From an uncultured Eubacteriales bacterium (GTDB lineage: Bacteria; Bacillota; Clostridia; Peptostreptococcales; Anaerovoracaceae), in NCBI GenBank assembly GCA_902765035.1, contig CACWYF010000002.1, positions 1 to 20,166 on the forward strand: DNA of 20,166 nt, given 5' to 3'. Positions 2,309 to 20,028 of the stretch are shown piece after piece (positions within the stretch are counted from its first letter, which is position 1; every line of letters begins with the position of its first letter). Both the position numbers and the translations under genes were made by a program. Under the pieces are notes generated by a model. It was given only the letters and a program-made list of their open reading frames with translations. It made no database searches and had not been told where the DNA came from.

Positions 2309-3745
2309 ATGATCAATAAAGACCACATAACAGATAATGACGGAATTACCAATTTTGATGAGCTCGAGGGAAAGAAGGTAAGAAAGACCAGCCTCAGCAG
2401 AAAGAGCAACCTTCTTGAGATGGAAGGGGTCAACTATGAAGTGCAGGATGTGGATAAGCCTAACCTGTTCAGAGAGTTCTTCGAATATGTTGAGGTGCCT
2501 AAGGTCGGTTTCAACTTCAGAACAAGCCCTTATGACATGCCTGAGGAGATCCTGATCACGGACTCGACGTTCCGCGACGGACAGCAGTCGAGAGAGCCGT
2601 ATACAACAAAGCAGATAGTTGATATATTCAAGCTCATATCCAGACTGTCGGGACCTAAGGGGATAATAAGACAGACAGAATTCTTCACATACAGCGACAG
2701 GGACAAGGAAGCTATCCATGCCTGCCAGGATCTCGGGCTTGAGTTCCCGCAGATCACGACATGGATCCGCGCAAAGAAGGAAGACTTCAAAATAGTCAAG
2801 GAGATGGGCGTCAAGGAGACAGGCATCCTGACAAGCTGTTCTGACTATCACATCTTCTACAAGCTCGGAATGACAAGAAAGCAGGCAATGGAACACTATC
2901 TGTCTGTAGTATATGATGCTTTTGAAGCCGGGATCATGCCGAGATGCCATCTCGAGGATATTACCAGAGCGGACTTCTACGGATTCGTAGTACCTTTCGT
3001 AAGGGCGGTGCAGGAAATGGCCGATGAGGCGGGAATGCCTGCCAAGATAAGGCTCTGTGATACAATGGGATTCGGTGTTCCGTATCCGGGCGTTGCAATG
3101 CCTAGGTCGGTTGCAGGTATAATCTACGGTCTCAAGCAGTATGCAGGCGTACCGAGCGAGATGCTTGAATGGCACGGACACAATGACTTCTATAAGGCTG
3201 TTGTCAATGCAGCAACTGCATGGCTTTACGGCTGCGGCGCGGTCAACTGCACGATCTTCGGAATAGGAGAGAGGACCGGCAACATTCCTACTGAGGCGAT
3301 GGTATTCGAATACGCACAGCTCAAGGGAACCCTCAATGGTATGGATACGACGGCCATCACTGAGCTCGCAAGATTTTATGAGCACCAGATAGGATATACA
3401 CTTCCGGCCCAGACACCGTTTGCCGGAGCCAACTTCAATGTTACCAGAGCAGGCATCCATGCAGACGGTCTTCTGAAGAATGAAGAAATCTATAATATAT
3501 TCGACACAGGCAAATTCCTTGACAGACCGCCTCTTGTCAACATCAACCAGAACTCAGGTGCAGCAGGTGTCGCACACTGGCTCAACACAAGCTACGGCCT
3601 GAAGGGCGAGAAGCAGGTAGACAAGCACAGTCCGGTCGTCAAATATGTCAAAGAGTGGATCGACAGCGAATACGCGAGCGGACGTGTGGCAGAAATCGGC
3701 GCCTCGGAGATCTACAACAAGGTCAACGAGTTCACTCAGCAGTAA
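2309..3745 (+). CDS. Re-citrate synthase-like enzyme (2-isopropylmalate synthase superfamily)
   Basis: Probable citrate (Re)-synthase, condensing acetyl-CoA with oxaloacetate to citrate in the cytosol. The DRE-TIM metallolyase signatures are present: DSTFRDGQQ at residues 85-93 with metal-ligand Asp90, the HxH metal pair His289 and His291 in EWHGHNDF, and a GERTGN motif. The long C-terminal LeuA regulatory domain seems absent. This matches Re-citrate synthases of strict anaerobes such as Clostridium kluyveri. The neighbouring aconitase-family and icd genes support citrate rather than isopropylmalate or homocitrate as product. I chose ATG 2309 (478 residues) because AGAGGA lies 7 bases upstream; an in-frame ATG at 2261 adds 16 residues but has no ribosome site and overlaps the TATAAT. 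The family is sure; the exact substrate is inferred. Confidence 0.85.
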   Translation: MINKDHITDNDGITNFDELEGKKVRKTSLSRKSNLLEMEGVNYEVQDVDKPNLFREFFEYVEVPKVGFNFRTSPYDMPEEILITDSTFRDGQQSREPYTTKQIVDIFKLISRLSGPKGIIRQTEFFTYSDRDKEAIHACQDLGLEFPQITTWIRAKKEDFKIVKEMGVKETGILTSCSDYHIFYKLGMTRKQAMEHYLSVVYDAFEAGIMPRCHLEDITRADFYGFVVPFVRAVQEMADEAGMPAKIRLCDTMGFGVPYPGVAMPRSVAGIIYGLKQYAGVPSEMLEWHGHNDFYKAVVNAATAWLYGCGAVNCTIFGIGERTGNIPTEAMVFEYAQLKGTLNGMDTTAITELARFYEHQIGYTLPAQTPFAGANFNVTRAGIHADGLLKNEEIYNIFDTGKFLDRPPLVNINQNSGAAGVAHWLNTSYGLKGEKQVDKHSPVVKYVKEWIDSEYASGRVAEIGASEIYNKVNEFTQQ

Positions 3746-3772
3746 GCTGTCAGCCGGTATATGCAGACATAG

Positions 3773-3806
3773 AAGCAGCGGGAGTACGGGTACTTCCGCT
3801 GCTTTT
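3773..3806 (+). terminator. Strong intrinsic terminator after the citrate synthase-like gene
   Basis: A stem of about 14 bp, AGCAGCGGGAGTAC against GTACTTCCGCTGCT with one G-T wobble and a two-base loop, ends in TTTT. It should make the synthase gene a separate transcription unit from the aconitase-citrate lyase cluster, unless read-through occurs. Confidence 0.85.
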
Positions 3807-3825
3807 GCATAAATACCGCCAGTGC

Positions 3826-3890
3826 TGAGATTCCAACGCTTACGGGCACATCAAAAAGACTGAATTTGAGGGCCGAAAATCTTCAAATTT
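3826..3890 (+). repeat. Possible dispersed intergenic element, copy B
   Basis: This contains TGAGATTCC, then CAAAAAGACTGAATTTGAG and GGCCG, in the same order as related words at 2048-2097. Inside it AATTTGA (3863-3869) and TCAAATT (3883-3889) form a perfect 7-base inverted repeat that could act as a hairpin or operator upstream of the next operon. This is a candidate only. Confidence 0.3.
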
Positions 3891-3915
3891 AGTGGAATTA
3901 TCGGATGTCTCTAAA

Positions 3916-3956
3916 TATAATCTAATTACTGATAATGGACGGCGTAAATCGTACGC
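3916..3956 (+). promoter_or_regulatory. Promoter candidate for the acn-cit-icd cluster
   Basis: A perfect TATAAT (3916-3921) lies about 90 bases before the aconitase-family start codon, with no good -35. Just past the expected start point is an inverted repeat, GCGTA-aatcg-TACGC (3942-3956), in a position where a repressor could act. Its assignment as an operator is inference. Confidence 0.4.
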
Positions 3957-4011
3957 TTTCAGGGGAAAAGAAGCTATTTCTTGAACAGAGATCAGGGAAG
4001 GAGATTTAATT

Positions 4012-6255
4012 ATGATCAAGTATTATCAGAGGGGAGTCCTGTGGCATGACGGCGCTCCGGTGGATGCACCTGAGTCGGCAGATAAGTGCAGCGGGCGCAA
4101 CGGGACAATGGCATATCAGATACTGAACGCACACCGCGAACAGACTGATGACGGTATTTTTCATATAAAATTCGATGCTCTTGTATCGCACGACATCACA
4201 TACGTAGGCATCATACAGACAGCAAGGGCGAGCGGACTTAAGGAGTTCCCGATCCCTTCTGCAATGACAAACTGCCACAACAGCCTCTGCGCTGTCGGCG
4301 GCACCATAAACGAAGACGACCACGTATTCGGTCTGTCTGCAGCAAAGAAATACGGCGGCATATATGTTCCGGCCAATCAGAGTGTTATCCACTCATATGC
4401 AAGAGAAGAGCTGGCTGCATGCGGCAACATGATCCTCGGGTCTGACAGCCACACCCGTTATGGCGCGCTCGGCACGATGGGCGTCGGAGAAGGCGGTCCT
4501 GAGCTGGTAAAACAGCTCCTTAAGAACACATGGGATATAACCCCTCCTGAGGTCGTCCTCTGCTATGTCACAGGCAAGCCTCGCAAAGGTATAGGCCCTC
4601 ATGACGTGGCCATCGATCTCGTCAGAGAGACATTTGCCGGCGGCAAGGTCAAGAACAAGGTTCTCGAGTTCGCGGGACCTGGACTTGAGTATCTTCCGTA
4701 TGACTTCAGAAGCGGTATAGATGTAATGACGACAGAGACGACATGTCTCTCGTCCATCTGGGCTACTGATGATGAGATCAGGAAATACTATGAGATCCAC
4801 AAGCGTCCTGAGTGCTACAGGGAACTTGCACCTGAAGAAGGCGCTTACTATGACGCGATCGTAACCATCGAGCTCGACAAGATCGAGTCAATGATCGCGC
4901 TTCCTTTCCATCCGTCCAACGCATATACGATCCATGAGTTCCTTGAGAACGCAGATGAGATCCTCGCGGGAGTGGAGGAAGAAGCAGCCAGGAAGTTCCC
5001 TAAGGCGCGTCTCGACCTTCGCTCCAAGGTCAGTGACAAGGGCGTTCTTGCCAATCAGGGCGTCATCGCCGGATGCTCAGGCGGAATCTTCGATAACATC
5101 GTAGAAGCGGCAGATATCCTTGCCGGCGGAAGCACAGGCAACGGCTACTTCTCGCTGTCCGTATATCCGACAAGCGTGCCGACGAGCCTTGCTCTTACAC
5201 GTGCGGGCAAAACAGAAGCGCTTCTTGAGGCGGGAGCTGTCATCAAGCCGTCGTTCTGCGGACCGTGCTTCGGTGCAGGAGACGTACCTGCCAACAACGG
5301 ACTGTCTCTCCGCCACACGACAAGGAATTTCCCTAACCGTGAAGGCTCAAAGCCGGGCGAAGGACAGATAAGCGCTGTTGCACTGATGGATTCACGTTCA
5401 ATCGCAGCTACTGCAAAGAACGGAGGATACATCACAGCTGCAACGGATATTGATTACGAAACAGAGCACATCCCGTATACATTCGATAACACAGCATACA
5501 GGAACAGATGCTACTATGGCTTTGGCAAGGCTGATCCTGAAGCAGAGCTCATACTCGGACCTAACATCACAGACTGGCCGAAGATGTACGAGCTCTCAGA
5601 CAACCTGCTTGTAGAGCTGGCAGCTGTTATCAGAGACCCTGTTACTACAACAGACGAGCTGATCCCTTCGGGTGAGACCAGCTCATACAGGAGCAATCCA
5701 CTGAGACTGTCAGAGTTCGCGCTCTCGCGCCGCGTACCTGAATACGTCGGAAGATCCAAAGCTGTTGCAGCAGACGAGGCAGCACGCCGTGCAGGCGGGA
5801 AGCCTGAGAAGCTGGCAAAGGTACTCGGAGCAGTAGGCGACGCGGATGAACTCATTAAGAACACACAGTTCGGATCCTGCGTATTCGCCAACAAGCCGGG
5901 TGACGGATCGGCGCGTGAACAGGCCGCATCCTGCCAGAAGGTGCTCGGCGGTTTTGCCAACATATGCTATGAGTACGCGACCAAGAGATACCGCAGCAAC
6001 TGCATCAACTGGGGCATCCTGCCGTTCACACTTGACGAGGGCACTGAATTCCCTTACGAGGACGGCGACTTCGTATTCGTACCCGGCATCCGCGCAGCCA
6101 TAAGCAGCGGAGAAGAGAAGATACCTGCCAAGGTCATCACTAAGGACGGCAAGGTAAATGACATAGACCTCTGGGTAAAGGGACTTACGGAAGACGAGAA
6201 AGAGATCATACTTGAGGGATGCCTCATGAATTACTACGCAGCTCAGAATAAGTAA
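4012..6255 (+). CDS. Aconitase-family hydratase (YbhJ-like)
   Basis: Likely interconverts citrate and isocitrate in the cytosol with a [4Fe-4S] cluster. The 747-residue protein has the three cluster cysteines: Cys355 (AGCSGG) and Cys416/Cys419 (CGPC). Other aconitase landmarks are GSDSH at 143-147, RNFPNR at 438-443 and GDGSARE at 630-636, the last containing the expected catalytic Ser633 and Arg635. It departs from textbook aconitase at several places: CTN after the first cysteine is CSG, SSR is SAR, and the CDH motif appears as NCH (residues 87-89). Overall it resembles the E. coli YbhJ branch, whose activity is poorly known. AAGGAG precedes the ATG. It lies 21 bases before citD and downstream of the citrate synthase-like gene, which favours aconitase activity. 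Family certain, substrate probable. Confidence 0.85.
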   Translation: MIKYYQRGVLWHDGAPVDAPESADKCSGRNGTMAYQILNAHREQTDDGIFHIKFDALVSHDITYVGIIQTARASGLKEFPIPSAMTNCHNSLCAVGGTINEDDHVFGLSAAKKYGGIYVPANQSVIHSYAREELAACGNMILGSDSHTRYGALGTMGVGEGGPELVKQLLKNTWDITPPEVVLCYVTGKPRKGIGPHDVAIDLVRETFAGGKVKNKVLEFAGPGLEYLPYDFRSGIDVMTTETTCLSSIWATDDEIRKYYEIHKRPECYRELAPEEGAYYDAIVTIELDKIESMIALPFHPSNAYTIHEFLENADEILAGVEEEAARKFPKARLDLRSKVSDKGVLANQGVIAGCSGGIFDNIVEAADILAGGSTGNGYFSLSVYPTSVPTSLALTRAGKTEALLEAGAVIKPSFCGPCFGAGDVPANNGLSLRHTTRNFPNREGSKPGEGQISAVALMDSRSIAATAKNGGYITAATDIDYETEHIPYTFDNTAYRNRCYYGFGKADPEAELILGPNITDWPKMYELSDNLLVELAAVIRDPVTTTDELIPSGETSSYRSNPLRLSEFALSRRVPEYVGRSKAVAADEAARRAGGKPEKLAKVLGAVGDADELIKNTQFGSCVFANKPGDGSAREQAASCQKVLGGFANICYEYATKRYRSNCINWGILPFTLDEGTEFPYEDGDFVFVPGIRAAISSGEEKIPAKVITKDGKVNDIDLWVKGLTEDEKEIILEGCLMNYYAAQNK

Positions 6256-6276
6256 CGTGCCCGGGGAGGAAGAACA

Positions 6277-6576
6277 ATGGAAATCAAGAAAACCGCAGTT
6301 GCAGGCACACTCGAAAGCAGCGACTGCATGGTCACGATCGAGCCATCGGCCAAGGGCCTGGAGCTGGATCTTGAAAGTGCTGTCATCAGGCAGTACGGAA
6401 AGAGGATCGCAGAAGTGGCGATGGAGACGCTCGGCCGCCTCGGCGTTGAAAACGCCAGAGTCAGCATTGTGGACAAGGGCGCTCTTGACTGCACCATCAA
6501 GGCCAGAGTGGAATGCGCCGTTATGCGCTCTGCCGAATATGAAGGCAGAATAGGCTGGGGAGGTGTTATAAAATGA
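6277..6576 (+). CDS. citD: Citrate lyase gamma subunit (acyl carrier protein)
   Basis: Small acyl carrier subunit of citrate lyase, 99 residues, the usual length. It carries the 2'-(5''-triphosphoribosyl)-3'-dephospho-CoA arm to which acetyl and citryl groups are thioester-linked. The attachment region GTLESSD is intact, with Ser14 at the position modified in the Klebsiella protein, and the DKGALDC segment further on is also typical. A strong GGGGAGGA site precedes the ATG. Its stop codon overlaps the citE start (ATGA), implying coupled translation and matched amounts of the two subunits. Confidence 0.97.
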   Translation: MEIKKTAVAGTLESSDCMVTIEPSAKGLELDLESAVIRQYGKRIAEVAMETLGRLGVENARVSIVDKGALDCTIKARVECAVMRSAEYEGRIGWGGVIK

Positions 6577-7475
6577 CAAATCCTAACAAATACCGCCTGC
6601 GCAGGACGATGATGTTCCTGAACTGCCAGAAACCTGGTCTCATCAAGGACCCGTACATCTATAAGCCGGACTCGATCATGCTTGATCTCGAGGATGCTGT
6701 AGCTGAGAGAGAGAAGGACGCAGCCCGGTTCTCCCTCTATCATGCTCTGCAGGAGATCGATTACAGAGGCGTCGAGAGAGTCGTCCGCATCAACGGACTC
6801 GATACGGACCTGTGGAGAGAAGATGTAAGATGCGCGGTCGCAGGAGGCTGCGACTCCATCCGCATCCCTAAGACAGAGACAGCTGATGATGTCCGCACTG
6901 TAGAGTACGCCATAGAAGAGGCTGAGAGAGAATTCAGCAGACCTGCCGGCAGCGTGCTGATCATGGCGGCGCTCGAATCCGCAAGAGGCGTCATCAACGC
7001 GATGAGCATATGCGACTCATCGGAGAGACTGTTCGGAATAGCCCTTTCCGGAGGCGACTATTCCAGAGACCTTCAGATCTCGATATCCGGTACCGGCGTC
7101 GAGTTCATGGGGGCAAGGCAGCACATGATCATAGCTGCAAGAGCAGCCAAGATTCAGTGCTTCGATACAGTATGGACCAACCTCGATGACATGGAGGGCT
7201 TCAGAAAAGAAGTTGAAGTCATACATTCCATGGGCTTTGACGGCAAGTCCATCATCAACCCTCGCCAGATCCCGGTCGTCCATGAGATATACACACCGAA
7301 GGAGAAGGACATCATCTTCGCCGAGAAGGTCATCAGGGAGATCGACGATAAGAAGGCTAAGGGCATAGGCGTATTCACAGTAGACGGAAAGATGATCGAT
7401 ATCGCGTTCTATGACGGAGCGAAGAGAACGATCGCGCTTGCCAAAGCATCCGGTATATACAAGGGGGATCTGTAA
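6573..7475 (+). CDS. citE: Citrate lyase beta subunit (citryl-ACP lyase)
   Basis: Splits citryl-S-ACP into oxaloacetate and acetyl-S-ACP, a Mg2+-dependent step within the cytosolic citrate lyase complex. The 300-residue chain has the HpcH/CitE TIM-barrel pattern: LDLEDAV near residue 37, RINGLD near residue 73, ALES with the metal-ligand Glu135, and GGDYSRDL with Asp162 as the second Mg2+ ligand. Length and motifs agree with true CitE, and the presence of citD and citF excludes the stand-alone CitE-like enzymes (malyl- or citramalyl-CoA lyases). It overlaps citD by four bases and ends just before citF. Confidence 0.97.
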   Translation: MTNPNKYRLRRTMMFLNCQKPGLIKDPYIYKPDSIMLDLEDAVAEREKDAARFSLYHALQEIDYRGVERVVRINGLDTDLWREDVRCAVAGGCDSIRIPKTETADDVRTVEYAIEEAEREFSRPAGSVLIMAALESARGVINAMSICDSSERLFGIALSGGDYSRDLQISISGTGVEFMGARQHMIIAARAAKIQCFDTVWTNLDDMEGFRKEVEVIHSMGFDGKSIINPRQIPVVHEIYTPKEKDIIFAEKVIREIDDKKAKGIGVFTVDGKMIDIAFYDGAKRTIALAKASGIYKGDL

Positions 7476-7476
7476 C

Positions 7477-9078
7477 ATGATTAATGCAGTAGGAAGAGAC
7501 ATCCCGGAAGAGATACTGGAAATAACAGGCAAAGAACCTTTCCAGGGAAACTTTTATAAAGACGACAAATCCATAGTCATGAGAGGACCGACGATCAGGC
7601 CTGTCATGAACAACGAGAAGTCCAAGCTGGTCGCAGATATCAGGGAAGCTCTTGTCAAGTGTGATGCGCATGACGGGATGACAGTATCATTCCACCATCA
7701 CTTCCGTGATGGCGACCTCATAGTCAACATGGTCATGAAAGAGATTCATGACATGGGGCTGAAGGACATAACCATCTGCGCCACTTCGTTGGGTAAGGCT
7801 CACGATCCGCTCGTGCCGATGATAGAAGACGGCACAATTACGGGTATCGAGTCTTCGGGTGTAAGGGGCAAAATCGGTGAGGCTATCTCCAAGGGCAAGC
7901 TCAAGGGGCTGGCTGTAATGAGATCTCATGGAGGAAGAGTCAGAGCTCTTGCCACAGGTGAGGCTCACGTAGACATCGCATTCATCGGTGCTCCGACTGC
8001 GGATGACTACGGCAACCTCAGAGGTATCGGAGGAAAGGCAGACTGCGGCGTACTCAGTTATGCCATAGTAGACGGCAACCACGCAGACCACTGCGTAGCC
8101 ATCACTGACTGCCTCGTACCTTATCCGAACTTCCCGGCTCACATCTCTCAGACCAAGGTCGACTATGTATGCGTGGTGGACGAGATCGGTATTCCGTCCA
8201 AGATCGCGACGGGCGCGGCCAAGCCGACGACTGACCAGAGAAAACTCCTGATGGCACAGTACTGCACCGATGTTGTAGTAAATACGCCGTGGTTCAAGGA
8301 TGGTTTTTCATACCAGACAGGAGTAGGCGGAGCATCCATCGCATCCACTCAGTATCTCGCTGAGATAATGAGAGAGCGCAACATACATATGGGCTTTGGT
8401 GTAGGAGGCCTGACCAAGGCAATGTGCCAGCTGCTCGATGACGGAATGGCAAGAGTCATGCTCGACGTACAGGATTTTGACCTTGATGCGGTTCGCAATC
8501 TTAAGAATGTCAACCATCACAGGATCCCGGCGGGCGTATACGCCAATCCGCTTAACAAGGGTGCGGTAGTAAACAAGCTGGATTACGTCGTGCTTGCATC
8601 CCTTGAGGTCGACGTCCACTTCAACTGCAACGTAGTTGTCGGTTCGGACGGAATGATCACGGGAGCGCAGGGAGGACATCCGGACACGGCTCAGGGAGCA
8701 AAATGCGCGATCGTAATCTGTCCTCTGCTGCAGGGAAGGATACCTGCTATTTGCACCGATGTAACAACAGTAACCACACCGGGAGAGAGCATCGATGTAG
8801 TCGTTACTGATTACGGCGTCGCCGTCAATCCGGCAAGGCAGGATATTCTCCAGGCGCTGAAGGAGGCTGACTGCGTTCCGCTGAAGACCATAGAGGAACT
8901 CAGGGACATCGCATACTCCATAGTCGGCGAGCCTGAGAAGGTCGAATTCGAGGACAGAGTCGTAGGCATCATAGAAGCCCGTGACGGAACTATCATTGAT
9001 GTAGTAAGGCAGAGCAAGGAAATCCCGGAGCCTGTTGTGTATAAGAAGAAAGCAAGTAAAAGGAAATCAAATGGATAA
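7477..9078 (+). CDS. citF: Citrate lyase alpha subunit (citrate:acetyl-ACP transferase)
   Basis: Exchanges acetate for citrate on the CitD carrier, forming citryl-S-ACP and releasing acetate. The 533-residue product is of normal to slightly long size. It has family segments such as [24 protein letters not shown] and [11 protein letters not shown] placed the start at ATG 7477, two bases after the citE stop, because AAGGGGGA lies nine bases upstream; an upstream in-frame extension would run back into citE. The last residues form a lysine-rich tail (KKKASKRK) which may be a local extension. The 3' end overlaps the start of icd by eight bases, an arrangement that ties isocitrate dehydrogenase translation to the lyase. 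Confidence 0.96.
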
Positions 9079-10282
9079 GATCAGAATGACGACCCCGATC
9101 GTCGAGATGGACGGGGATGAAATGACAAGAATACTCTGGAAGATGATCAAGGACGAACTGATCCTTCCTTTCGTGGATCTCAAGAGTGAATATTACGACC
9201 TGGGACTTCCTGTCCGCGATGAGACAGGTGACCAGATCACCAAGGATGCCGGAGAAGCCATTAAGAAATACGGCGTCGGAGTCAAGTGCGCTACCATCAC
9301 ACCTAATGCTCAGCGCATGACTGAATACAATCTGCACGAGATGTGGAAGAGCCCTAACGGGACGATCCGTGCGATACTCGACGGAACCGTTTTCCGCGCA
9401 CCTATCACAATAGACGGCATCAAGCCGGTCGTACGCAACTGGAAGAAGCCTATCACCGTTGCCCGTCACGCATATGGCGACCTCTACAGAGGAACAGAGT
9501 ACCGCGTGCCTGAGAAGGGCAAGGCTGAGCTGGTGTTCACAGGCGAAAACGGAGCTGAGTTCCGCGAGACAGTATATGACTATGAATGCCCGGGCATCCT
9601 GCAGGCAATCTACAACAAGGACAGCTCAATCGAGTCCTTTGCTCATTCATGCTTCAAGTATGCTATAGAGACCAGACAGGACCTCTGGTTCTCCGCTAAG
9701 GACACTATCTCCAAGAAGTACGACATGCACTTCCGCGATGTGTTCCAGAAGCTGTATGACGAGTGCTATAAGGAAAAATTCGAAGAGCTCGGACTTACAT
9801 ATTTCTATACACTCATCGACGATGCCATCGCGCGCGTCATCAGAAGCGAGGGCGGATTCATCTGGGCTCTCAAGAACTACGACGGGGATGTCATGAGCGA
9901 CATGGTTTCGACAGCGTTCGGCTCACTTGCAATGATGACATCCGTACTCTGCAGCCCGGACGGAAAGTTTGAGTACGAAGCTGCGCACGGTACTGTTACA
10001 AGACACTACTACAAGTATCTCAACGGCGAAGAGACTTCGACCAACCCGATGGCTACCATTTTCGCATGGAGTGGCGCTCTCAGAAAGCGCGGTGAGATGG
10101 ACGGTCTCGAGGACCTTCAGAAATTCGGAGACAAGCTCGAGGAGGCATGCATCGATACCCTCAATGACGGCATCATGACCAAGGACCTCGTAGGTCTCGT
10201 TGACGGAATGGAAGCAAGGGCAGTCCTCACCACGGACTTCATAGCAGCAATCCGCGAGCGCCTGGAGCAGAAGCTCGCATAG
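9071..10282 (+). CDS. icd: NADP-dependent isocitrate dehydrogenase (eukaryote-like homodimeric type)
   Basis: Oxidatively decarboxylates isocitrate to 2-oxoglutarate with NADP+, or in reverse carboxylates 2-oxoglutarate with NADPH and CO2. The 403-residue protein begins with [14 protein letters not shown] and contains KCATITP, the substrate-phosphate loop [10 protein letters not shown] and GTVFR. This pattern marks the homodimeric type shared by eukaryotes and some bacteria, not the E. coli Icd type. The start at 9071 follows AAAGGAA closely and lies inside the end of citF. It sits between citF and citC, splitting the citrate lyase genes. With the aconitase-family protein it completes a route from citrate to glutamate precursor. 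Confidence 0.96.
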
Positions 10283-10319
10283 GACGGAACTACAGGGCGG
10301 GACTGATCAGGAACACTTG

Positions 10320-11300
10320 ATGGGCGTAGCAATTTATCAGACACCGTTATACGAAAGTCAGCAGCACGATTATCTCGAGCTGCTGGCTTTATGCGGTCTC
10401 AGGGATGAAGGAGACGCGGATGCAGTAGCTCTGGCTACTGACGAAAGAGGCATTCTTACTGGCTGTGGCGCACTGGCAGGACATACTGTCAAGCAGCTCG
10501 CCGTCACACCGGACGCTGAAGGACAGGGAGTGATGGCATCCGTGCTGTCTGCTCTCATAGGTGAAGCTCATGCCCGCGGGGAGCACAGGCTGTTCCTGTG
10601 TACCAGGCCGGATAACGTGAAGATGTTCAGCTCGATGGGATTCTACACTGTCATCAGTACAGCGGATGCCCTTCTCATGGAGAACAGAAGAGACGGACTG
10701 GAGGATTATCTCAGCTCGCTGCCGCGATACAAAGGGGTGTGCGGAGCCGTGGTGTGCAACTGCGATCCTTTTACCCTCGGACACCGGCATCTTATAGAAT
10801 ATGCGGCATCGCAGTGCGATCATCTGTATGTGTTTGCGGTATCTGAAAGCGGGTCGATGTTCACCCCGCCAGAGCGCCTTGAGATGATACAGAGGGGAAC
10901 AGAGGATATCCCGGACTGCCATGTGTTCGAAAGCAATCTGTACCTTGTATCACGCGCAACTTTTCCTGCGTATTTCATAAGAGATGAAGAGAGGGCTGAC
11001 CTCGTGAAGTCCGATATTGACATAGAGCTGTTCGGTGCTCGGATCGCACCTGCTCTTAACATCACGAAGAGGTTCGTGGGAGAAGAGCCGTACTCCCCGG
11101 TCACAAAGGCCTACAACGAACGGATGAAGGAGCTGCTGCCGGAGCACGGGATCACGATCTGTGAGATCCCGAGATATGAAGGCATCAGCGCCGGAAAAGT
11201 TCGCAGCCTGCTGCTTGAGGGCGACATGGAATCCGTAAGAGAAATGGTTCCGGAGACTACATATGAAATCATACAGCGTAAGTCTCGCGCAGGTGCTTGA
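10320..11300 (+). CDS. citC: [Citrate (pro-3S)-lyase] ligase
   Basis: Activates citrate lyase by ATP-dependent acetylation of the thiol on the CitD prosthetic group. The 326-residue protein has the standard two parts: an N-terminal GNAT-like domain (to about residue 120, with VTPDAEGQG) and a nucleotidyltransferase domain holding CDPFTLGHRHL at 148-158, where T-x-G-H is the ATP-binding motif. A TTG three bases upstream could also start translation; I prefer ATG 10320 because AGGA (10309-10312) is better spaced from it. It lies 37 bases after icd and overlaps the next gene by 38 bases. Because only acetylated lyase works, this enzyme is a natural on-switch for citrate cleavage. Confidence 0.95.
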   Translation: MGVAIYQTPLYESQQHDYLELLALCGLRDEGDADAVALATDERGILTGCGALAGHTVKQLAVTPDAEGQGVMASVLSALIGEAHARGEHRLFLCTRPDNVKMFSSMGFYTVISTADALLMENRRDGLEDYLSSLPRYKGVCGAVVCNCDPFTLGHRHLIEYAASQCDHLYVFAVSESGSMFTPPERLEMIQRGTEDIPDCHVFESNLYLVSRATFPAYFIRDEERADLVKSDIDIELFGARIAPALNITKRFVGEEPYSPVTKAYNERMKELLPEHGITICEIPRYEGISAGKVRSLLLEGDMESVREMVPETTYEIIQRKSRAGA

Positions 11301-12549
11301 CGCCCGCGAGAGACGTGCAGCGATACAGAATAAAATGCTTGCGGGAGCAGGTCAGGGCCATTGCCTTATCTGCCTCACTCTGAACATAGCGGGAGAGGTC
11401 AAAAGGACGCCGATGACACGCATGCTGTTCGGGCGCGGAGTCAGAGAACTGAAAGCCCTGGACCTAAGGATAGCGGACAGCTTCATGCTCGATGAGCCAA
11501 CGGGCTCTGAGGGATTCTGGCTGGCTGAAGAAGACCCCGCAGAAGTAAAAAGACAGCTTGAGACTGTTGAGGACTCGTTCCCTGCAGCCAGGCTTTTTGA
11601 TTTTGATGTTCTGACAGCGGACGGAACCAAGCTGTCAAGGAATGAAAGCAGGCGCTGCCTCATATGCGATGCGCCGGCAGCCGAGTGTGCCAGAAGCCGC
11701 AGGCACGGACTGGACGCGGTAAAAGCAGCTACTGACCGGCTGCTGAGGCAGTTTTGTGCTGATGAGCTGGCGGAGGCAGCACATGATTCGCTTCTGGATG
11801 AACTGTACACAACGCCTAAACCGGGACTTGTGGACCTGATGAGCTGCGGTGCGCATACGGACATGGATGTCTCGCTTTTCGAAAAGAGTGCTGCAGCGCT
11901 GGTGCCGTATTTCAGGGACGCTGCCCTGATGGGTATGGACTGTTGTGAGATGGCAGACCTCCGCAGACGCGGACTGGAAGCGGAACAGGATATGTTCAGA
12001 GCGACCGGCGGAGTCAACACCCATAAGGGGATGATATATTCAATGGGACTTCTCCTGGCGGGAATGGGCAGATGCCTGACGGATGGCGGAGACTGCATTG
12101 AACATGCGGCAGAGCTTGCCCGCCGGGATGCGGACAAGTATCTCGGAGAAAACCTTGAAAGACCGGTCACGAATGGCGGGGCGGTATACAGAAAATACGG
12201 TGCCGGGGGTGCCACTGCGGAAGCGGCTTCCGGGTTTCCGGAAGCAGAGTACTGCTTCTCAAGACTCGTGCACTACAGAAGCCTGGGATGCGGGAACCCC
12301 GATGCACTTGCATTCTGTGACGTCATGGCGGACCTCGAAGATACTAACCTGTTGCACAGAGGGGGCGAAGAGGGACTTGGATTTGCACGGCAGGCCGCGG
12401 CAGAGATAGCCGCAATGCCGGAAGCGGAGCGTGAAAAGGCTCTTGCTGAACTTGATGATGAAATGATCAGACGCAATCTGTCGCCGGGAGGCAGCGCTGA
12501 CATGCTCGCGCTTGCATTCCTGCTTGAGAGGTGGCAGATACTGCTGTAA
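11263..12549 (+). CDS. citXG: Fused holo-citrate lyase synthase / triphosphoribosyl-dephospho-CoA synthase (CitXG)
   Basis: One 428-residue chain joins two maturation enzymes. Residues 1-150 are CitX, which transfers the phosphoribosyl-dephospho-CoA arm to Ser14 of apo-CitD; it shows LTLNIAGEVK near the start and the cysteine-rich end CLIC...CARSRRHG (132-149). Residues from about 155 to 428 are CitG, which makes the arm's precursor from ATP and dephospho-CoA; it shows ELYTTPKPGLVD (180-191), GAHTDMD, GGVNTHKG and TNLLHRGG. Fusions of this kind are known in other bacteria. CGGAG precedes the ATG, which lies 38 bases inside citC. This is the last gene of the cluster before a hairpin terminator. 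Confidence 0.95.
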   Translation: MKSYSVSLAQVLDARERRAAIQNKMLAGAGQGHCLICLTLNIAGEVKRTPMTRMLFGRGVRELKALDLRIADSFMLDEPTGSEGFWLAEEDPAEVKRQLETVEDSFPAARLFDFDVLTADGTKLSRNESRRCLICDAPAAECARSRRHGLDAVKAATDRLLRQFCADELAEAAHDSLLDELYTTPKPGLVDLMSCGAHTDMDVSLFEKSAAALVPYFRDAALMGMDCCEMADLRRRGLEAEQDMFRATGGVNTHKGMIYSMGLLLAGMGRCLTDGGDCIEHAAELARRDADKYLGENLERPVTNGGAVYRKYGAGGATAEAASGFPEAEYCFSRLVHYRSLGCGNPDALAFCDVMADLEDTNLLHRGGEEGLGFARQAAAEIAAMPEAEREKALAELDDEMIRRNLSPGGSADMLALAFLLERWQILL

Positions 12550-12561
12550 TCTGATAATCAG

Positions 12562-12589
12562 GGCTCTGTCTATGGTGCGGAGCCTCTTT
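12562..12589 (+). terminator. Intrinsic terminator ending the acn-cit-icd cluster
   Basis: GGCTCTG (12562-12568) pairs with CGGAGCC (12578-12584), including one wobble pair, and is followed by TCTTT. It is moderate in strength. Confidence 0.6.
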
Positions 12590-12655: not shown

Positions 12656-13597
12656 ATGCTTCAGAATTTTATACTCTGCTTCAATGCAGTACTTCCATCA
12701 ATGATATATCTGGCCATCGGCATCATCCTGAGGATGAACAAAGTGATCGATGACCGGGATGTAAAGAGGTTCACGCACATCGTATTCGTGGCGCTCTATC
12801 CTTTTATAATGTTCGATAATCTCTACGGCAAGAACGTAGGCGAGCACCTGGACTTTAAGCTCGGAGCCTATGCACTGGGATTCACCATCCTGCAGTTTGC
12901 TGTTTCGTGGGTATTCGTGTGCAAAACAGAAAAGGACAACTACGACCGCGGCGCGATGATACAGGCGCTGTTCCGGAGCAATTTCATCCTGATGGGATTC
13001 CCGATAGCGATGAACCTGTTCGGCAGGGGCAATATAACGCCTGTAGCCATAATCATGCTGCTTGTGATCCCGTTCTATAATATCGCAACTGTAGTCGTAT
13101 TCGAGACTTTCAGAGGCGGCAAAGTAGACATTAAGGACATGGTAAAAAGGATCCTGACCAATCCTATCATCGACGGCGGCATAGCTGCAGCGGTAGTGAT
13201 GCTGCTGCATATCACACTCCCTGAGACCATAGCGAACACGGTCACGGCACTCTCGGACTGCACTTCTCCGATAGCACTGATCCTGCTCGGCGCGGGACTC
13301 AACCTGAAGGATTTTGAGAGCGACACGAAGAAAGTAGCCATCTGCACATTCGGCAAGCTCGTATTCTTCCCGGCATTCGGGATCGCAGGAGCAGTGCTCA
13401 TCGGTCTGAGAGGAGTGCCTCTTGTATCCGTCACGCTTATGGTGGCGGCCCCTGTTGCGCTCGCTTCATATGCTATGGCGAGCTCAATGGGAGGCAACGG
13501 CAGGCTTGCGGGAGAGCTCGTCGTAACGACAACGCTTATTTCATGCCTGACCATACCGGTCTGGCTGTTCATACTCAGGACAGCGGGGATGTTCTGA
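12656..13597 (+). CDS. AEC-family transporter (auxin efflux carrier / malonate-malate permease type)
   Basis: Integral membrane carrier of 313 residues with about ten hydrophobic segments arranged as two repeats of five, the usual AEC (PF03547) layout. Typical words are an ALYPF segment in the second helix, FRSNFILMGFP in the first half, and LILLGAGLNL followed by VALASYAMA in the second half. Family members with known function move dicarboxylates such as malate or malonate (MleP, MdcF), so an organic-acid role next to citrate genes is reasonable, but the substrate and direction are inferred. GGAG lies six bases before the ATG. It has its own promoter and is followed after 48 bases by mntP, probably in the same transcript. 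Confidence 0.92.
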   Translation: MLQNFILCFNAVLPSMIYLAIGIILRMNKVIDDRDVKRFTHIVFVALYPFIMFDNLYGKNVGEHLDFKLGAYALGFTILQFAVSWVFVCKTEKDNYDRGAMIQALFRSNFILMGFPIAMNLFGRGNITPVAIIMLLVIPFYNIATVVVFETFRGGKVDIKDMVKRILTNPIIDGGIAAAVVMLLHITLPETIANTVTALSDCTSPIALILLGAGLNLKDFESDTKKVAICTFGKLVFFPAFGIAGAVLIGLRGVPLVSVTLMVAAPVALASYAMASSMGGNGRLAGELVVTTTLISCLTIPVWLFILRTAGMF

Positions 13598-16599: not shown

Positions 16600-19500
16600 A
16601 TGCTTGAACTGAAGAACATTTCCAAGGAATATAAGACGGGCGCCGAGGTGGTCCATGCTCTGAAGGGCATAGACCTCGCTTTCCGTGAGAGCGAGTTCGT
16701 CTCGATCCTGGGACCTTCAGGATGCGGCAAGACTACGATGCTGAACATCCTCGGAGGACTTGACCAGTATACGGACGGCGACCTTGTAATAGACGGCATC
16801 AGCACCAAGGAGTACAAGGACGCGGACTGGGATGCGTACAGAAACGACACGATAGGTTTCGTATTCCAGAGCTACAACCTGATCTCACATCAGACGGTGC
16901 TTGCCAATGTTGAGCTTGCGCTGACTCTTTCAGGTGTATCCGCAGGGGAGAGAAAACAGAGGGCGATACAGGCTCTTGAGCAGGTAGGCCTGGGAGACCA
17001 GATATACAAGAAGCCGGCACAGATGTCTGGCGGACAGGTGCAGAGAGTTGCGATAGCGCGTGCACTCATAAATGACCCGGACATAATCCTTGCTGATGAG
17101 CCGACCGGTGCGCTGGACTCCGAGACCAGCATCCAGGTAATGGCCATCCTAAAGGAGATATCCAGAAACAAGCTGGTCATAATGGTAACGCACAACCCTG
17201 AACTTGCCGAGGAGTATTCCACCAGGATAGTAAGGCTGTCTGACGGACAGGTCATCAGCGACTCCGATCCGTTCGTACCGGGAACAGAGCCTGTGATGCT
17301 CAGTGCAGGAGCCCTTCCTGCAGCAGGAGCAGCGGCAGGACTGGCCGGAGCTGATGCGGCGGACGTTCCGAAACGGGCTGCAAGAAGAGCGAGCGGAAGA
17401 CATAATAAGTCGATGTCAATGAAGACCGCGCTGCAGCTGTCGCTGAACAACCTCATGACCAAGAAGGCCAGGACTCTGCTCACGGCGTTTGCCGGCAGCA
17501 TCGGTATCATCGGCATCGCGCTCATACTTTCGGTATCCAACGGATTCCAGAAGTACATAGATAAACTCGAAGAGGATACACTCTCGTCCTATCCTCTGAC
17601 GATACAGTCCGAGACCGCGGACATGACATCCATGATCACGGCTTTTGCCACAAACGCCCAGGACACTGAAGGTGAGGAATCCGGCGACCGGATCCATGAG
17701 CAGCAGATCATGACGGATCTGCTGGCAAGTGTCGGAAGCAATGACCTCGCGGCATTCAAGAAGAGGCTGGATGCTGACATGGGCAAAATCGGCAAGTGGT
17801 TCAATGCGTACGATTACTCATACGGGCTGTCAGTAAACATATACTCGACGGATATGAAGTACGGCCCGCTGAGAGTCAGCCCGGGCTCGATCATGCAGTC
17901 GTACATGAGCGGCTTCCAGCAGAACAACTTCTCGATGATGAACACAGACGTATTCTTCCAGATGATGGACAACGAGAAGCTGCTGAAATCCCAGTATAAA
18001 GTGCTCGCAGGAAAGTGGCCTGAAAAGTACAACGAGCTGCTGCTCGTCCTCGACAGCGAAGACCAGCTCAATGACTACATAGTCTACACGCTCGGCCTCC
18101 GCGACCCTCAGGAACTGAAGGACATGATCAACGATGTCATGAACGGCAAAGAGGTCGAGAACACCAATGAAAAGCTCGAATGGACCTACGATGACTTCAT
18201 CGGCAAGGAGTTTGCCCTTGTTCATGCCTGCGATACATTCAGACGCAACTCTTCCTATGCTGTATGGGAGGATATGACCGATGACGAGGCATACATGGAG
18301 AATCTGATCAAGGAATCAGAGAAGCTTCATATAACCGGTATAGTCTGTGCGAAGGAAGCCAGTGCTGCCAATGCCATGGAGTCTGGCGTAGGATACCTTC
18401 CGGCCCTGACACATCACATGATCGACTATGCCAAGGAGTCAGAAATAGTCAGGATACAGCGCGCCAACAAGAACACTGACGTTTTCTCGGGCAAAAGCTT
18501 CGAGTCGATCCGCAACAATACCGATGAGGGGCTCGGCTTCGATGACATGATCAGCATCGACGAGAACAAGCTGAAGCAGGCGTTCGGCGGCAACATGAAC
18601 ATGAAGGCGCTCGAAAAGGCCATCCGCAAGACCGGAGACGACGAGCTCAAAAAGCTGATGAATCAGGATTCAGCGGAGAAGATAGAAGAAGATGTCAATT
18701 CCGCACTCCGCACCGGATGCAACGGAATGATAGACTACATAGTTGAGCAGTATAAGAAAGATCCTGCGAACTTCAAGTTCAATGATGATCTTGTCACTGC
18801 AGCTCTCGGAGAGAACCTGAACAGCGGCAAGCATGCACAGGTAGTAAACGGCCTTCTTAAAGGATATGCCGAGCTTCTCAAAGCATCGGGACCGCAGATC
18901 ATGGCGGGTATAGCTGCTGCATCTGACCCTGCGGCTGCGCAGGCGCTGCTGGCTCAGCAGATAGCTCAGCAGACAGGCGGTGTGATCACAGCAGATCAGG
19001 CCATGCAGCTTCTCAATACCGGAGTAAATAAGGAAGCCATAATGGCTCTTATCCCGGATATGACTGAGGAGGCGGCAGAAGCTCTTGCCGGACAGATCAA
19101 CAGGATGGTAGAAGAGCAGGCACAGGCCGATCCGGCTCAGATGCTTAAGGACGGCCTGTCGCAGACCGTGGATCCGTATGTGACCAACAGTGAGGTGCAG
19201 AACGGCATCAAACAGTACGGCGAAGGTATCCAGGCCATGCAGATGGCTCAGGAAGTATACCCTGCACTCGGCAAGGTAGCCGCTGCAGTCGGAAGCCAGT
19301 TCAATGTCGATCCGTCGCTTATTGCTTCGGCCTTCCAGATGAAGATGGATGAGGATGAGATCACACGGCTCATAACGGCATATGTATCCGGAGGACAGGA
19401 GACGAGTTATGACTCCAACCTCAGGAAACTCGGATATGCGGATCTCGCCAACCCGATGGCGATGTCCTTCTATCTCAAGGACTTTGAGTCCAAGGAGAGC

Positions 19501-20028
19501 TTCCTGAAGTATATAGATGACTACAATCAGGAGATGCAGGACAACGGCGATGAGGACATGGTCATCAGCTACACGGATATAACCGGCGTCATGATCAAGT
19601 CGGTCAAGACGATCACCAATGCCGTCAGCTATGTTCTTATAGCATTCGTGGCGATTTCACTGATCGTATCCTCGATCATGATCGGAGTCATCACCTACAT
19701 CTCGGTACTTGAGCGTACCAAGGAGATCGGTATCCTGAGGGCTATCGGAGCATCCAAGAAGGATATCTCCAGGATATTCAACGCAGAGACTATAATAGTC
19801 GGTCTGTGCGCAGGTGTCATAGGAATAGCGGCGAGCCTGCTCCTCCTGATACCTATAAACCACATACTGTTAAATCTCACCAAGATAGTTTCACTCAGGG
19901 CCATCCTGCCGCCGGCAGGAGGAGTAATACTGATACTCATCAGTATATTCCTCACTTACATCGCGGGACTCATCCCGTCAGGCATGGCTGCAAGAAAGAA
20001 TCCTGTCGAGGCTCTCAGGACCGAATAG
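16600..20028 (+). CDS. Fused ABC transporter ATPase/permease, MacB/FtsX type
   Basis: A 1142-residue membrane protein. Residues 1-225 are an ABC ATPase of the LolD/MacB type: Walker A GPSGCGKTT (38-46), signature MSGGQ (142-146), Walker B ILADE (163-167) and the H-loop THNP. An Ala-rich linker (about 230-265) leads to the first membrane helix (about 292-311). A very large extracellular domain (about 312-1005) follows, then three helices (about 1010-1032, 1060-1082, 1105-1128) with the FtsX-type ERTKEIGILRAIGASK loop between the first two of them. Four helices fit the type VII ABC mechanism, which drives extracellular work or export without a classic channel. The extracellular part is far larger than in MacB and has an Ala/Gln-rich section after residue 768. 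The ribosome site is weak (AAAGGA, distant). The substrate is unknown; peptide or antibiotic export, or lipoprotein or envelope handling, are possible. Confidence 0.92.
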   Translation: MLELKNISKEYKTGAEVVHALKGIDLAFRESEFVSILGPSGCGKTTMLNILGGLDQYTDGDLVIDGISTKEYKDADWDAYRNDTIGFVFQSYNLISHQTVLANVELALTLSGVSAGERKQRAIQALEQVGLGDQIYKKPAQMSGGQVQRVAIARALINDPDIILADEPTGALDSETSIQVMAILKEISRNKLVIMVTHNPELAEEYSTRIVRLSDGQVISDSDPFVPGTEPVMLSAGALPAAGAAAGLAGADAADVPKRAARRASGRHNKSMSMKTALQLSLNNLMTKKARTLLTAFAGSIGIIGIALILSVSNGFQKYIDKLEEDTLSSYPLTIQSETADMTSMITAFATNAQDTEGEESGDRIHEQQIMTDLLASVGSNDLAAFKKRLDADMGKIGKWFNAYDYSYGLSVNIYSTDMKYGPLRVSPGSIMQSYMSGFQQNNFSMMNTDVFFQMMDNEKLLKSQYKVLAGKWPEKYNELLLVLDSEDQLNDYIVYTLGLRDPQELKDMINDVMNGKEVENTNEKLEWTYDDFIGKEFALVHACDTFRRNSSYAVWEDMTDDEAYMENLIKESEKLHITGIVCAKEASAANAMESGVGYLPALTHHMIDYAKESEIVRIQRANKNTDVFSGKSFESIRNNTDEGLGFDDMISIDENKLKQAFGGNMNMKALEKAIRKTGDDELKKLMNQDSAEKIEEDVNSALRTGCNGMIDYIVEQYKKDPANFKFNDDLVTAALGENLNSGKHAQVVNGLLKGYAELLKASGPQIMAGIAAASDPAAAQALLAQQIAQQTGGVITADQAMQLLNTGVNKEAIMALIPDMTEEAAEALAGQINRMVEEQAQADPAQMLKDGLSQTVDPYVTNSEVQNGIKQYGEGIQAMQMAQEVYPALGKVAAAVGSQFNVDPSLIASAFQMKMDEDEITRLITAYVSGGQETSYDSNLRKLGYADLANPMAMSFYLKDFESKESFLKYIDDYNQEMQDNGDEDMVISYTDITGVMIKSVKTITNAVSYVLIAFVAISLIVSSIMIGVITYISVLERTKEIGILRAIGASKKDISRIFNAETIIVGLCAGVIGIAASLLLLIPINHILLNLTKIVSLRAILPPAGGVILILISIFLTYIAGLIPSGMAARKNPVEALRTE

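Follow-up and report, generated by a model that had tools for sequence, protein, structure and literature searches.

We analyzed a 20,166-nucleotide stretch (hereafter the window) that forms contig C2 (CACWYF010000002.1) of the genome of an uncultured Eubacteriales bacterium (GCA_902765035.1; 1.76 Mb, 68% complete), in which an operon, acn-citD-citE-citF-icd-citC-citXG (4012-12549), lies downstream of a Re-citrate-synthase-like gene (2309-3745). An earlier sequence-only reading had described these citrate-making and citrate-splitting genes side by side, and NCBIfam and Pfam models confirmed all eight of them at about the same coordinates. The features are as follows:

2309-3745, + strand: Re-citrate-synthase-like gene (HMGL family, 478 amino acids; PF00682)
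3770-3807, + strand: terminator-like hairpin in the interval between the Re-synthase gene and acn (folding energy against shuffles)
4012-6255, + strand: acn, aconitase-family hydratase of the PRK11413 type (747 amino acids; PRK11413)
6277-6576, + strand: citD, citrate lyase gamma subunit, acyl carrier (TIGR01608)
6573-7475, + strand: citE, citrate lyase beta subunit (TIGR01588, full length, under the cut-off)
7477-9078, + strand: citF, citrate lyase alpha subunit (TIGR01584; PDB 2hj0)
9071-10282, + strand: icd, NADP-type isocitrate dehydrogenase (PRK08299; PDB 4aou)
10320-11300, + strand: citC, citrate lyase ligase (TIGR00124)
11263-12549, + strand: citXG fusion for prosthetic-group synthesis and attachment (PF03802 and PF01874; TIGR03124)
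12561-12585, + strand: terminator-like stem-loop 3' of the operon (z -3.9; 1 of 200 shuffles as good)
12656-13597, + strand: AEC-family permease (PF03547)

From acn to citXG, the intergenic distances are +21, -4, +1, -8, +37, and -38 bases. The hairpin at 3770-3807 has a folding energy of -25.6 kcal/mol (z -7.4), which none of 200 shuffles equaled; it has no entry in a terminator pattern scan, whose count in the window (12) is not above the shuffled expectation (9.1, standard deviation 3.2). Given this strong hairpin at its 3' side, the Re-synthase gene is probably a transcription unit of its own, apart from acn-citXG. The juxtaposition of a synthase-like gene with the lyase set is confirmed, with the hairpin separating that gene from acn. 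A search for RNA families gave zero matches at the gathering threshold.

The lyase genes form a full CitDEF set with CitC, CitX, and CitG, and citrate cleavage is predicted from the following model scores. CitD (124 bits against an NCBIfam cut-off of 63.5), CitF (647 against 501; 541 bits to PDB 2hj0), CitC (269 against 262), and the CitX part of CitXG (126 against 105) all exceeded their cut-offs, whereas CitE (357 against 443) and the CitG part (209 against 272 for TIGR03125) fell below theirs, yet are full length; the sister family MdcB scored 228 bits on the CitG part, likewise below its own cut-off. The icd product scored 640 bits with PRK08299 (cut-off 335) and 631 bits to the NADP enzyme PDB 4aou, with which it has a VTRHYYK stretch in common. 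This equivalog score, together with the Arg-His pair that we take to be the NADP site, assigns it by prediction to subfamily II of the NADP-isocitrate dehydrogenases. The acn product scored 1144 bits (cut-off 641) with the PRK11413 'hydratase' model, which belongs to the aconitase family and does not bear the aconitase name. By the usual aconitase residue numbers and roles, three Fe-S cysteines and the equivalents of His101, Ser642, and Arg644 are conserved in an alignment whose C-terminal part is weak.

The 2309-3745 product matches PF00682 and lies below every LeuA, NifV, and CimA cut-off in NCBIfam; the source genome carries a separate LeuA-like gene, whose product is 26% identical to it. 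Among its 120 listed relatives, 11 have source names, one of them 'citrate (Re)-synthase' (74% identity). These comparisons set it apart from LeuA, NifV, and CimA within the HMGL family, with a predicted Re-citrate-synthase-like activity.

To follow the arrangement beyond this genome, we scanned genome contigs for citF, a scan that yielded 109 confirmed relatives and from which 80 loci were retained. The acn/citDEF/icd block of the window type occurs in 18 of these 80 loci, and because it recurs in public loci from separate records, misassembly is ruled out, as is an order unique to one assembly; the sequence-only reading had named the same gene order in related genomes as a check. The order is acn-citDEF-icd in 13 loci (including L002, where a contig end interrupts acn) and acn-icd-citDEF in one (L006), while in L012, L013, L016, and L067 contig ends shorten the block and the remainder is consistent. 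Downstream, citC and citXG share the strand of the block in 10 of the 14 loci showing them and are inverted in L003, L006, L007, and L065. One locus, L001 ('uncultured Clostridiales bacterium isolate RUG099'), matches the operon and the flanking genes at 98-100% identity; several relatives carry the label Mogibacterium sp., with goat or sheep gut as their source, and their tree placement is Anaerovoracaceae. Ratios of nonsynonymous to synonymous substitution rates (against L065, L007, and L010) were 0.02-0.17 for all eight genes where computable, the synonymous rate being saturated, and the ratio meaningless, in 4 of 24 comparisons.

The 19 window-clade genomes are the source genome (G000, the only one with a stated completeness) and those of the 18 loci. 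Window-type icd is present in all 19, at most once each (partial in G131 and G133), and window-type acn in 18, again at most once (fragmented in G120 and G136); G131, whose lyase contig is 3.3 kb, has none. Weaker acn matches (26-33%) occur in 16 genomes, always on a contig with a LeuA-like match, and weaker icd matches in 16, of which 15 lie on such a contig; because of this location they look like leucine genes. A Re-synthase homologue (82-100% identity) is found in 18 of the 19 genomes, and no Si-citrate synthase was matched in any of them, with a control that matched in 13 of 14 reference genomes. The Re-synthase gene carries one in-frame TAG in G120 and one in-frame TGA in G124 (L085, L086; also L155 6170-7678).

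It is very unlikely that the hydratase or the lyase of the operon serves a different substrate, for example citramalate. The PRK11413 'hydratase' type of acn with its altered active-site residues would suit such a role, as would the fact that lyase copies in methylaspartate operons, probable citramalate lyases, also exceed the citF cut-off; however, a clear isocitrate dehydrogenase lies within the same operon, acn is paired with icd in G044, G045, and G105, and, apart from LeuC-like matches, the 19 genomes hold no further aconitase-type match. Second citDEF copies occur in G046, G117, and G044 (L149 7713-16386, L150 3377-11993, and L153 86-9987), where they share operons with glutamate mutase and, in G046 and G117, with methylaspartate ammonia-lyase as well; judged by this company, with the G046 genes scanned against models, they are probably citramalate lyases.

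In a family sample of 119 genomes, CitF exceeded its cut-off in 24 (29 at an E-value of 0.001; counts with PF04223 merge citrate lyases with probable citramalate lyases), window-type icd was found in 26 (E-value 1e-30), window-type acn in 15 (1e-60), Re-synthase in 21 (1e-60), and Si-synthase in 75. Contiguous acn, icd, and citDEF occur in six: G000, G050, G037, G112 (citF cut), G046, and G117. Among these, G050 has a Si-synthase, and G037, G112, G046, and G117 (94-97% complete, two genera) matched neither Si- nor Re-synthase. An alternative Re-synthase was sought among the HMGL genes of these four genomes (E-value 0.001, best BLAST match, models for some), and none of them fits: they are LeuA in G037 and G112, and otherwise OadA, pyruvate carboxylase (G046, G117), and a degenerate LeuA paralogue that has lost the metal motif and is partial in G037 and G112. 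The LeuA-like proteins at L118 1498-2889, L122 1456-2850, and L124 1426-2154 have neither the HxHND motif nor the DTTLRDGEQ sequence with which such proteins usually begin; those of L118 and L122 carry a LeuA_dimer domain, and relatives of these proteins occur in 8 of 10 genomes checked, with none in G000 or G050. The coupling of acn, icd, and the lyase is thus independent of any one synthase, occurring with a Re-synthase, with a Si-synthase, or without a recognized synthase.

The six contiguous operons differ in the descent of their parts. Identity to the window is 74-90% for acn and icd in the five other genomes but 40-58% for citD, citE, and citF; CitF and CitE of G050 and G046 exceed the citrate lyase cut-offs. 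In our trees, acn and icd of G050 fall inside the window clade, beside L006 (support 97/99 and 88/91), whereas its CitF groups with those of G037, G046, and G117 (100/99) and the window-clade CitF adjoins the Oscillospiraceae-labeled L015 and L017, and L045; L148, L147, L153, and L139 are long branches of unsure placement. The simplest reading is that lyase genes of two distant lineages were exchanged, on one side or the other, inside a kept operon. With the lyase from two lineages and acn and icd in common, the coupling appears to have outlived lyase replacement.

These genomes bear on the recycling of excess citrate, a possibility raised in the sequence-only reading; in this case the lyase would merely trim surplus Re-synthase citrate, returning oxaloacetate at the expense of one acetyl-CoA. 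Lyase and Re-synthase are indeed kept together in 18 of 19 genomes, but beyond this co-occurrence nothing spoke for recycling, and the operon is retained in four genomes without a recognized synthase, where synthase-made citrate cannot be its reason; we regard this explanation as improbable.

The acn-icd-citDEF unit is older than its adjacency to the Re-synthase. The synthase gene adjoins the block in 5 of the 18 loci (L001, L002, L006, L007, and L065), on the strand of the block in L001 and L006 and on the opposite strand in L002, L007, and L065. Adjacency as an essential trait is ruled out by these counts, four of the 18 loci being shortened by contig ends, and the neighboring of synthase and lyase operon is a local trait. 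Besides G000 and G105, 19 family genomes carry a Re-synthase. We examined 15 of them, and in 14 the homologue of the 2309-3745 product lies within a synthase-aconitase-dehydrogenase cluster, with an aconitase of another type and a LeuB-like dehydrogenase downstream and, in six, a GntR-type gene in between. Scanned in L158 (L165 was scanned too), these are a PRK07229-type aconitase and a LeuB-like enzyme with an Arg at the position where an Asp marks NAD enzymes; given this Arg, a cofactor switch from the older dehydrogenase is not claimed. In 4 of the 15 (L158-L161), an AEC permease homologue (41-53% identity) lies directly 3' of this older cluster, and no lyase genes lie there. One of these genomes, G082 (99% complete), is of the window's own genus and matched neither CitF nor window-type acn or icd at the thresholds used. 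Between synthase and permease, where these relatives carry the older aconitase-dehydrogenase pair, the window has the lyase operon, and the AEC permease is probably a neighbor belonging to the older Re-synthase block. G105 looks intermediate, having a Re-synthase, a GntR-type gene, and window-type acn and icd, with its lyase on a separate contig; in G128, one contig carries both the acn-cit operon and, about 30 kb further along, the Re-synthase block (permease and mntP, by eye).

The permease matters for the main rival to the reductive direction considered below, namely that imported citrate is split into the lyase products and also converted to 2-oxoglutarate and NADPH through acn and icd, with the Re-synthase serving when citrate is lacking. 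The window had been described as devoid of a citrate symporter, which is correct for the CitS and CitM types but overlooks the AEC-family permease that adjoins citXG. The AEC family includes MaeP. Citrate import by MaeP in O. oeni is described in PMC10798043. Homologues of the window permease (30-32%) lie 3' of citXG in Treponema loci L066 and L070. Other clostridia have citDEF loci of this CitF lineage that include a transporter, of the CitMHS type in group F6 (20 loci, one scanned) or TctA-like in F22 (7 loci, by eye), and some of these loci carry a 52-59% relative of the window acn. Moreover, citrate import would explain the synthase-free genomes equally, and decarboxylase genes of the source genome (see below) would suit citrate fermentation too. 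On the other hand, the position of the AEC gene is weakened as evidence for an importer by its membership in the older block of relatives and by its distance from the lyase in G128 (by eye), and a CitMHS-type importer, with one from such a transporter-bearing locus as the query, was matched in none of the 15 window-clade genomes searched (of 19; 2HCT, Tct, and DASS carriers were not searched genome-wide), nor in G050, G037, or G112. Relatives of the CitMHS type (38-40%) occur in G046 and G117, the G117 copy in an unrelated gene set (L151, by eye). We consider this combination of biosynthesis and citrate fermentation, which was among the readings first proposed and which the AEC permease and the synthase-free genomes also fit, possible at less than even odds.

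The sequence-only reading also predicted a switch in the locus, and candidates for one were found in relatives, although both are missing beside the window operon. They belong chiefly to a second sub-clade (L003-L005, L008-L014, L016, and L021), in which nine loci have a GntR-type gene (with an FCD domain in L010) divergently upstream of acn. Among the nine loci of this sub-clade showing the side beyond citXG, a LysR gene lies there in seven (L004, L008-L011, L014, and L021) and a glutaminase in six (not in L004, L005, or L012); the L010 glutaminase A scored 346 bits against a cut-off of 255. A 72-73% identical LysR gene also lies near the operon in L006 and G050, while the 30% match in L040 is a different LysR. 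The best model of the LysR proteins is GltC (165-172 bits in the three scanned, below the cut-off of 350), and as AlsR follows closely (145-169 bits), their ligand is not assignable from models. An exact palindrome, GATAGA-N5-TCTATC, stands 120-134 bp upstream of acn in all nine distinct loci with this LysR, which are related loci (one sub-clade, L006, and G050) and not nine independent events, and also in L016, whose contig stops before the LysR position. Further exact copies in 2.15 Mb (overlaps included) were confined to L086 and L155, both overlapping the L006 site. The palindrome fits the T-N11-A pattern of LysR sites and is a candidate operator. Neither LysR nor palindrome adjoins the operon in the window, L001, L003, L005, L007, or L065. 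The neighbors of citXG in G037, encoded on the opposite strand, include amidase genes and a gamma-glutamyltransferase-like gene (352 bits against a cut-off of 358). Control of citrate lyase ligase by L-glutamate is a feature of C. sphenoides, which we did not use as evidence.

We favor, at a probability of roughly 0.43, an interpretation in which the operon is one linear module, 2-oxoglutarate <-> isocitrate <-> citrate -> oxaloacetate + acetate, run reductively from plentiful glutamate or glutamine, with the Re-synthase acting separately for 2-oxoglutarate synthesis. Of the readings first proposed, this reductive route gained most, namely from the synthase-free genomes, the lyase exchange, and the glutaminase in six relatives. 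In such a module, glutamate or glutamine in excess would yield 2-oxoglutarate, which the NADP-isocitrate dehydrogenase would carboxylate using NADPH and CO2; the aconitase-type hydratase would convert isocitrate to citrate, and the ATP-independent lyase would split it into oxaloacetate and acetate. Oxaloacetate could become aspartate or enter a decarboxylase of the sodium-pumping type, for which genes lie outside the window. With glutamate dehydrogenase as a possible source of the NADPH, glutamate would be converted to acetate, pyruvate, and NH4+ in a redox-neutral manner. This balance equals that of the vitamin B12-dependent methylaspartate route. At glutamate scarcity, the Re-synthase, on its own transcript, would make 2-oxoglutarate with the help of this aconitase and this dehydrogenase. 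The sequences show the gene content, the layout of the operon, its conservation, its independence from any one synthase, and the joint occurrence of regulator and operator in relatives; from these we infer the enzyme activities, the direction, the separate transcription, and the metabolite signals.

Regarding the fate of oxaloacetate, the reported lack of an oxaloacetate decarboxylase applies to the window, but decarboxylase-type genes lie on contig C113 of the source genome: a beta subunit of the sodium-pumping decarboxylases (485 bits against a cut-off of 190.6), a protein of the OadA type (709 bits, below the cut-off of 718), and a biotin-carrier-like protein. They adjoin an aminotransferase-like gene, and the genome also encodes pyruvate carboxylase. 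A full B12-independent glutamate fermentation by carboxylation, isomerization, ATP-independent citrate splitting, and sodium-pumping decarboxylation, which would reach the methylaspartate sum through other reactions and pump ions in an additional step, we hold to be rather unlikely.

With approximate formation energies, 2-oxoglutarate + CO2 + NADPH -> oxaloacetate + acetate comes to +3.6 kJ/mol under standard conditions and to -6 to -19 kJ/mol in five of six assumed condition sets, about -13 kJ/mol at assumed rumen-like values. Neither these energies nor the decarboxylase genes prove a direction. A figure legend in PMC12016533 gives all these steps as reversible except that of the Re-synthase. 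Conceivably, high rumen acetate could push the lyase backwards as a synthase, from oxaloacetate and acetate to citrate and on to 2-oxoglutarate, which would account for the synthase-free genomes and would be in keeping with a lyase equilibrium constant of about 0.5 M (from the same approximate formation energies). However, 2-oxoglutarate formation is uphill by 6-19 kJ/mol in the same five sets and is favored only in the remaining one, where oxaloacetate is high and 2-oxoglutarate, CO2, and NADPH are low, and we consider this reversal highly improbable.

Several observations weigh against the reductive module. In one of the six assumed sets, the reductive reaction is uphill by 10 kJ/mol, with approximate energies and assumed concentrations throughout. 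Imported citrate accounts for the synthase-free genomes as readily, with the AEC permease as a conceivable importer. Among the 11 named relatives of the 2309-3745 product, seven are called '2-isopropylmalate synthase' and three a generic synthase. The retention of the Re-synthase in 18 of 19 genomes makes an oxidative flux to 2-oxoglutarate likely as well, and glutaminase and LysR are not beside the window operon. The acn product is altered at three active-site positions, Asp100 to Cys, Ser643 to Ala, and Gln72 to His (the C-terminal alignment being weak). Lastly, the acn-icd pair adjoins a synthase without a neighboring lyase in G105 (Re) and G045 (Si), so that the NADP-type enzyme proves no direction, and reductive flux cannot be read from it.

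In anaerobes, the citrate enzyme present is often taken to indicate the direction of citrate metabolism; here, citrate-making and citrate-splitting genes coexist, the splitting operon holds acn and icd, and four relatives have this operon without a recognized synthase. If the reductive module is correct, a ruminant-gut lineage degrades glutamate via citrate, and predictions of amino-acid fermentation, CO2 use, and acetate formation from gut genomes would have to be made differently.

Among known systems, CAC0970-0972 of C. acetobutylicum is a putative operon of the same three steps (citrate synthase, aconitase, and isocitrate dehydrogenase) linked to glutamate synthesis; it is without citrate lyase, whereas the window joins other aconitase and dehydrogenase types to citDEF. 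According to PMC4383383, a C. acetobutylicum aconitase mutant is rescued fully by glutamate, partially by glutamine, and not by 2-oxoglutarate. Citrate fermentation clusters of lactic acid bacteria and others share with the window the full lyase and maturation set, and oxaloacetate decarboxylase-type genes in the genome; unlike them, the window has acn and icd inside, no CitP, CitS, or CitM permease, and the decarboxylase on another contig. The citrate-cleaving arm of the reductive tricarboxylic acid cycle would, if the reductive direction is right, follow the same path from 2-oxoglutarate through isocitrate and citrate to oxaloacetate and a C2 unit, but the window lyase is ATP-independent, with acetate and not acetyl-CoA as its product. 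The methylaspartate pathway has the same net products once glutamate dehydrogenase and oxaloacetate decarboxylase are added, and both employ a CitDEF-type lyase; the gene content of the window, however, includes neither the mutase nor methylaspartate ammonia-lyase beside the lyase, and these form separate operons in G044, G046, and G117. A literature search over titles and the starts of abstracts, covering few subscription papers, gave no description of such an operon among the matches listed, which is weak evidence of novelty; the parts are known, and the arrangement is new as far as we found.

Three further features were seen around the operons. Downstream of the lyase operon in L005 (16757-20036) and L156 (12300-15593, by eye), a C69 peptidase gene precedes an aconitase X split into two parts (AcnX and swivel). 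In the window, 16600-20028 encodes a 1142-amino-acid protein with an N-terminal ABC ATPase domain and a C-terminal FtsX permease domain, and 1379-2035 encodes a small protein, flavodoxin-like by eye and without a Pfam or NCBIfam match, which in several relatives, too, has its gene close to that of the Re-synthase.

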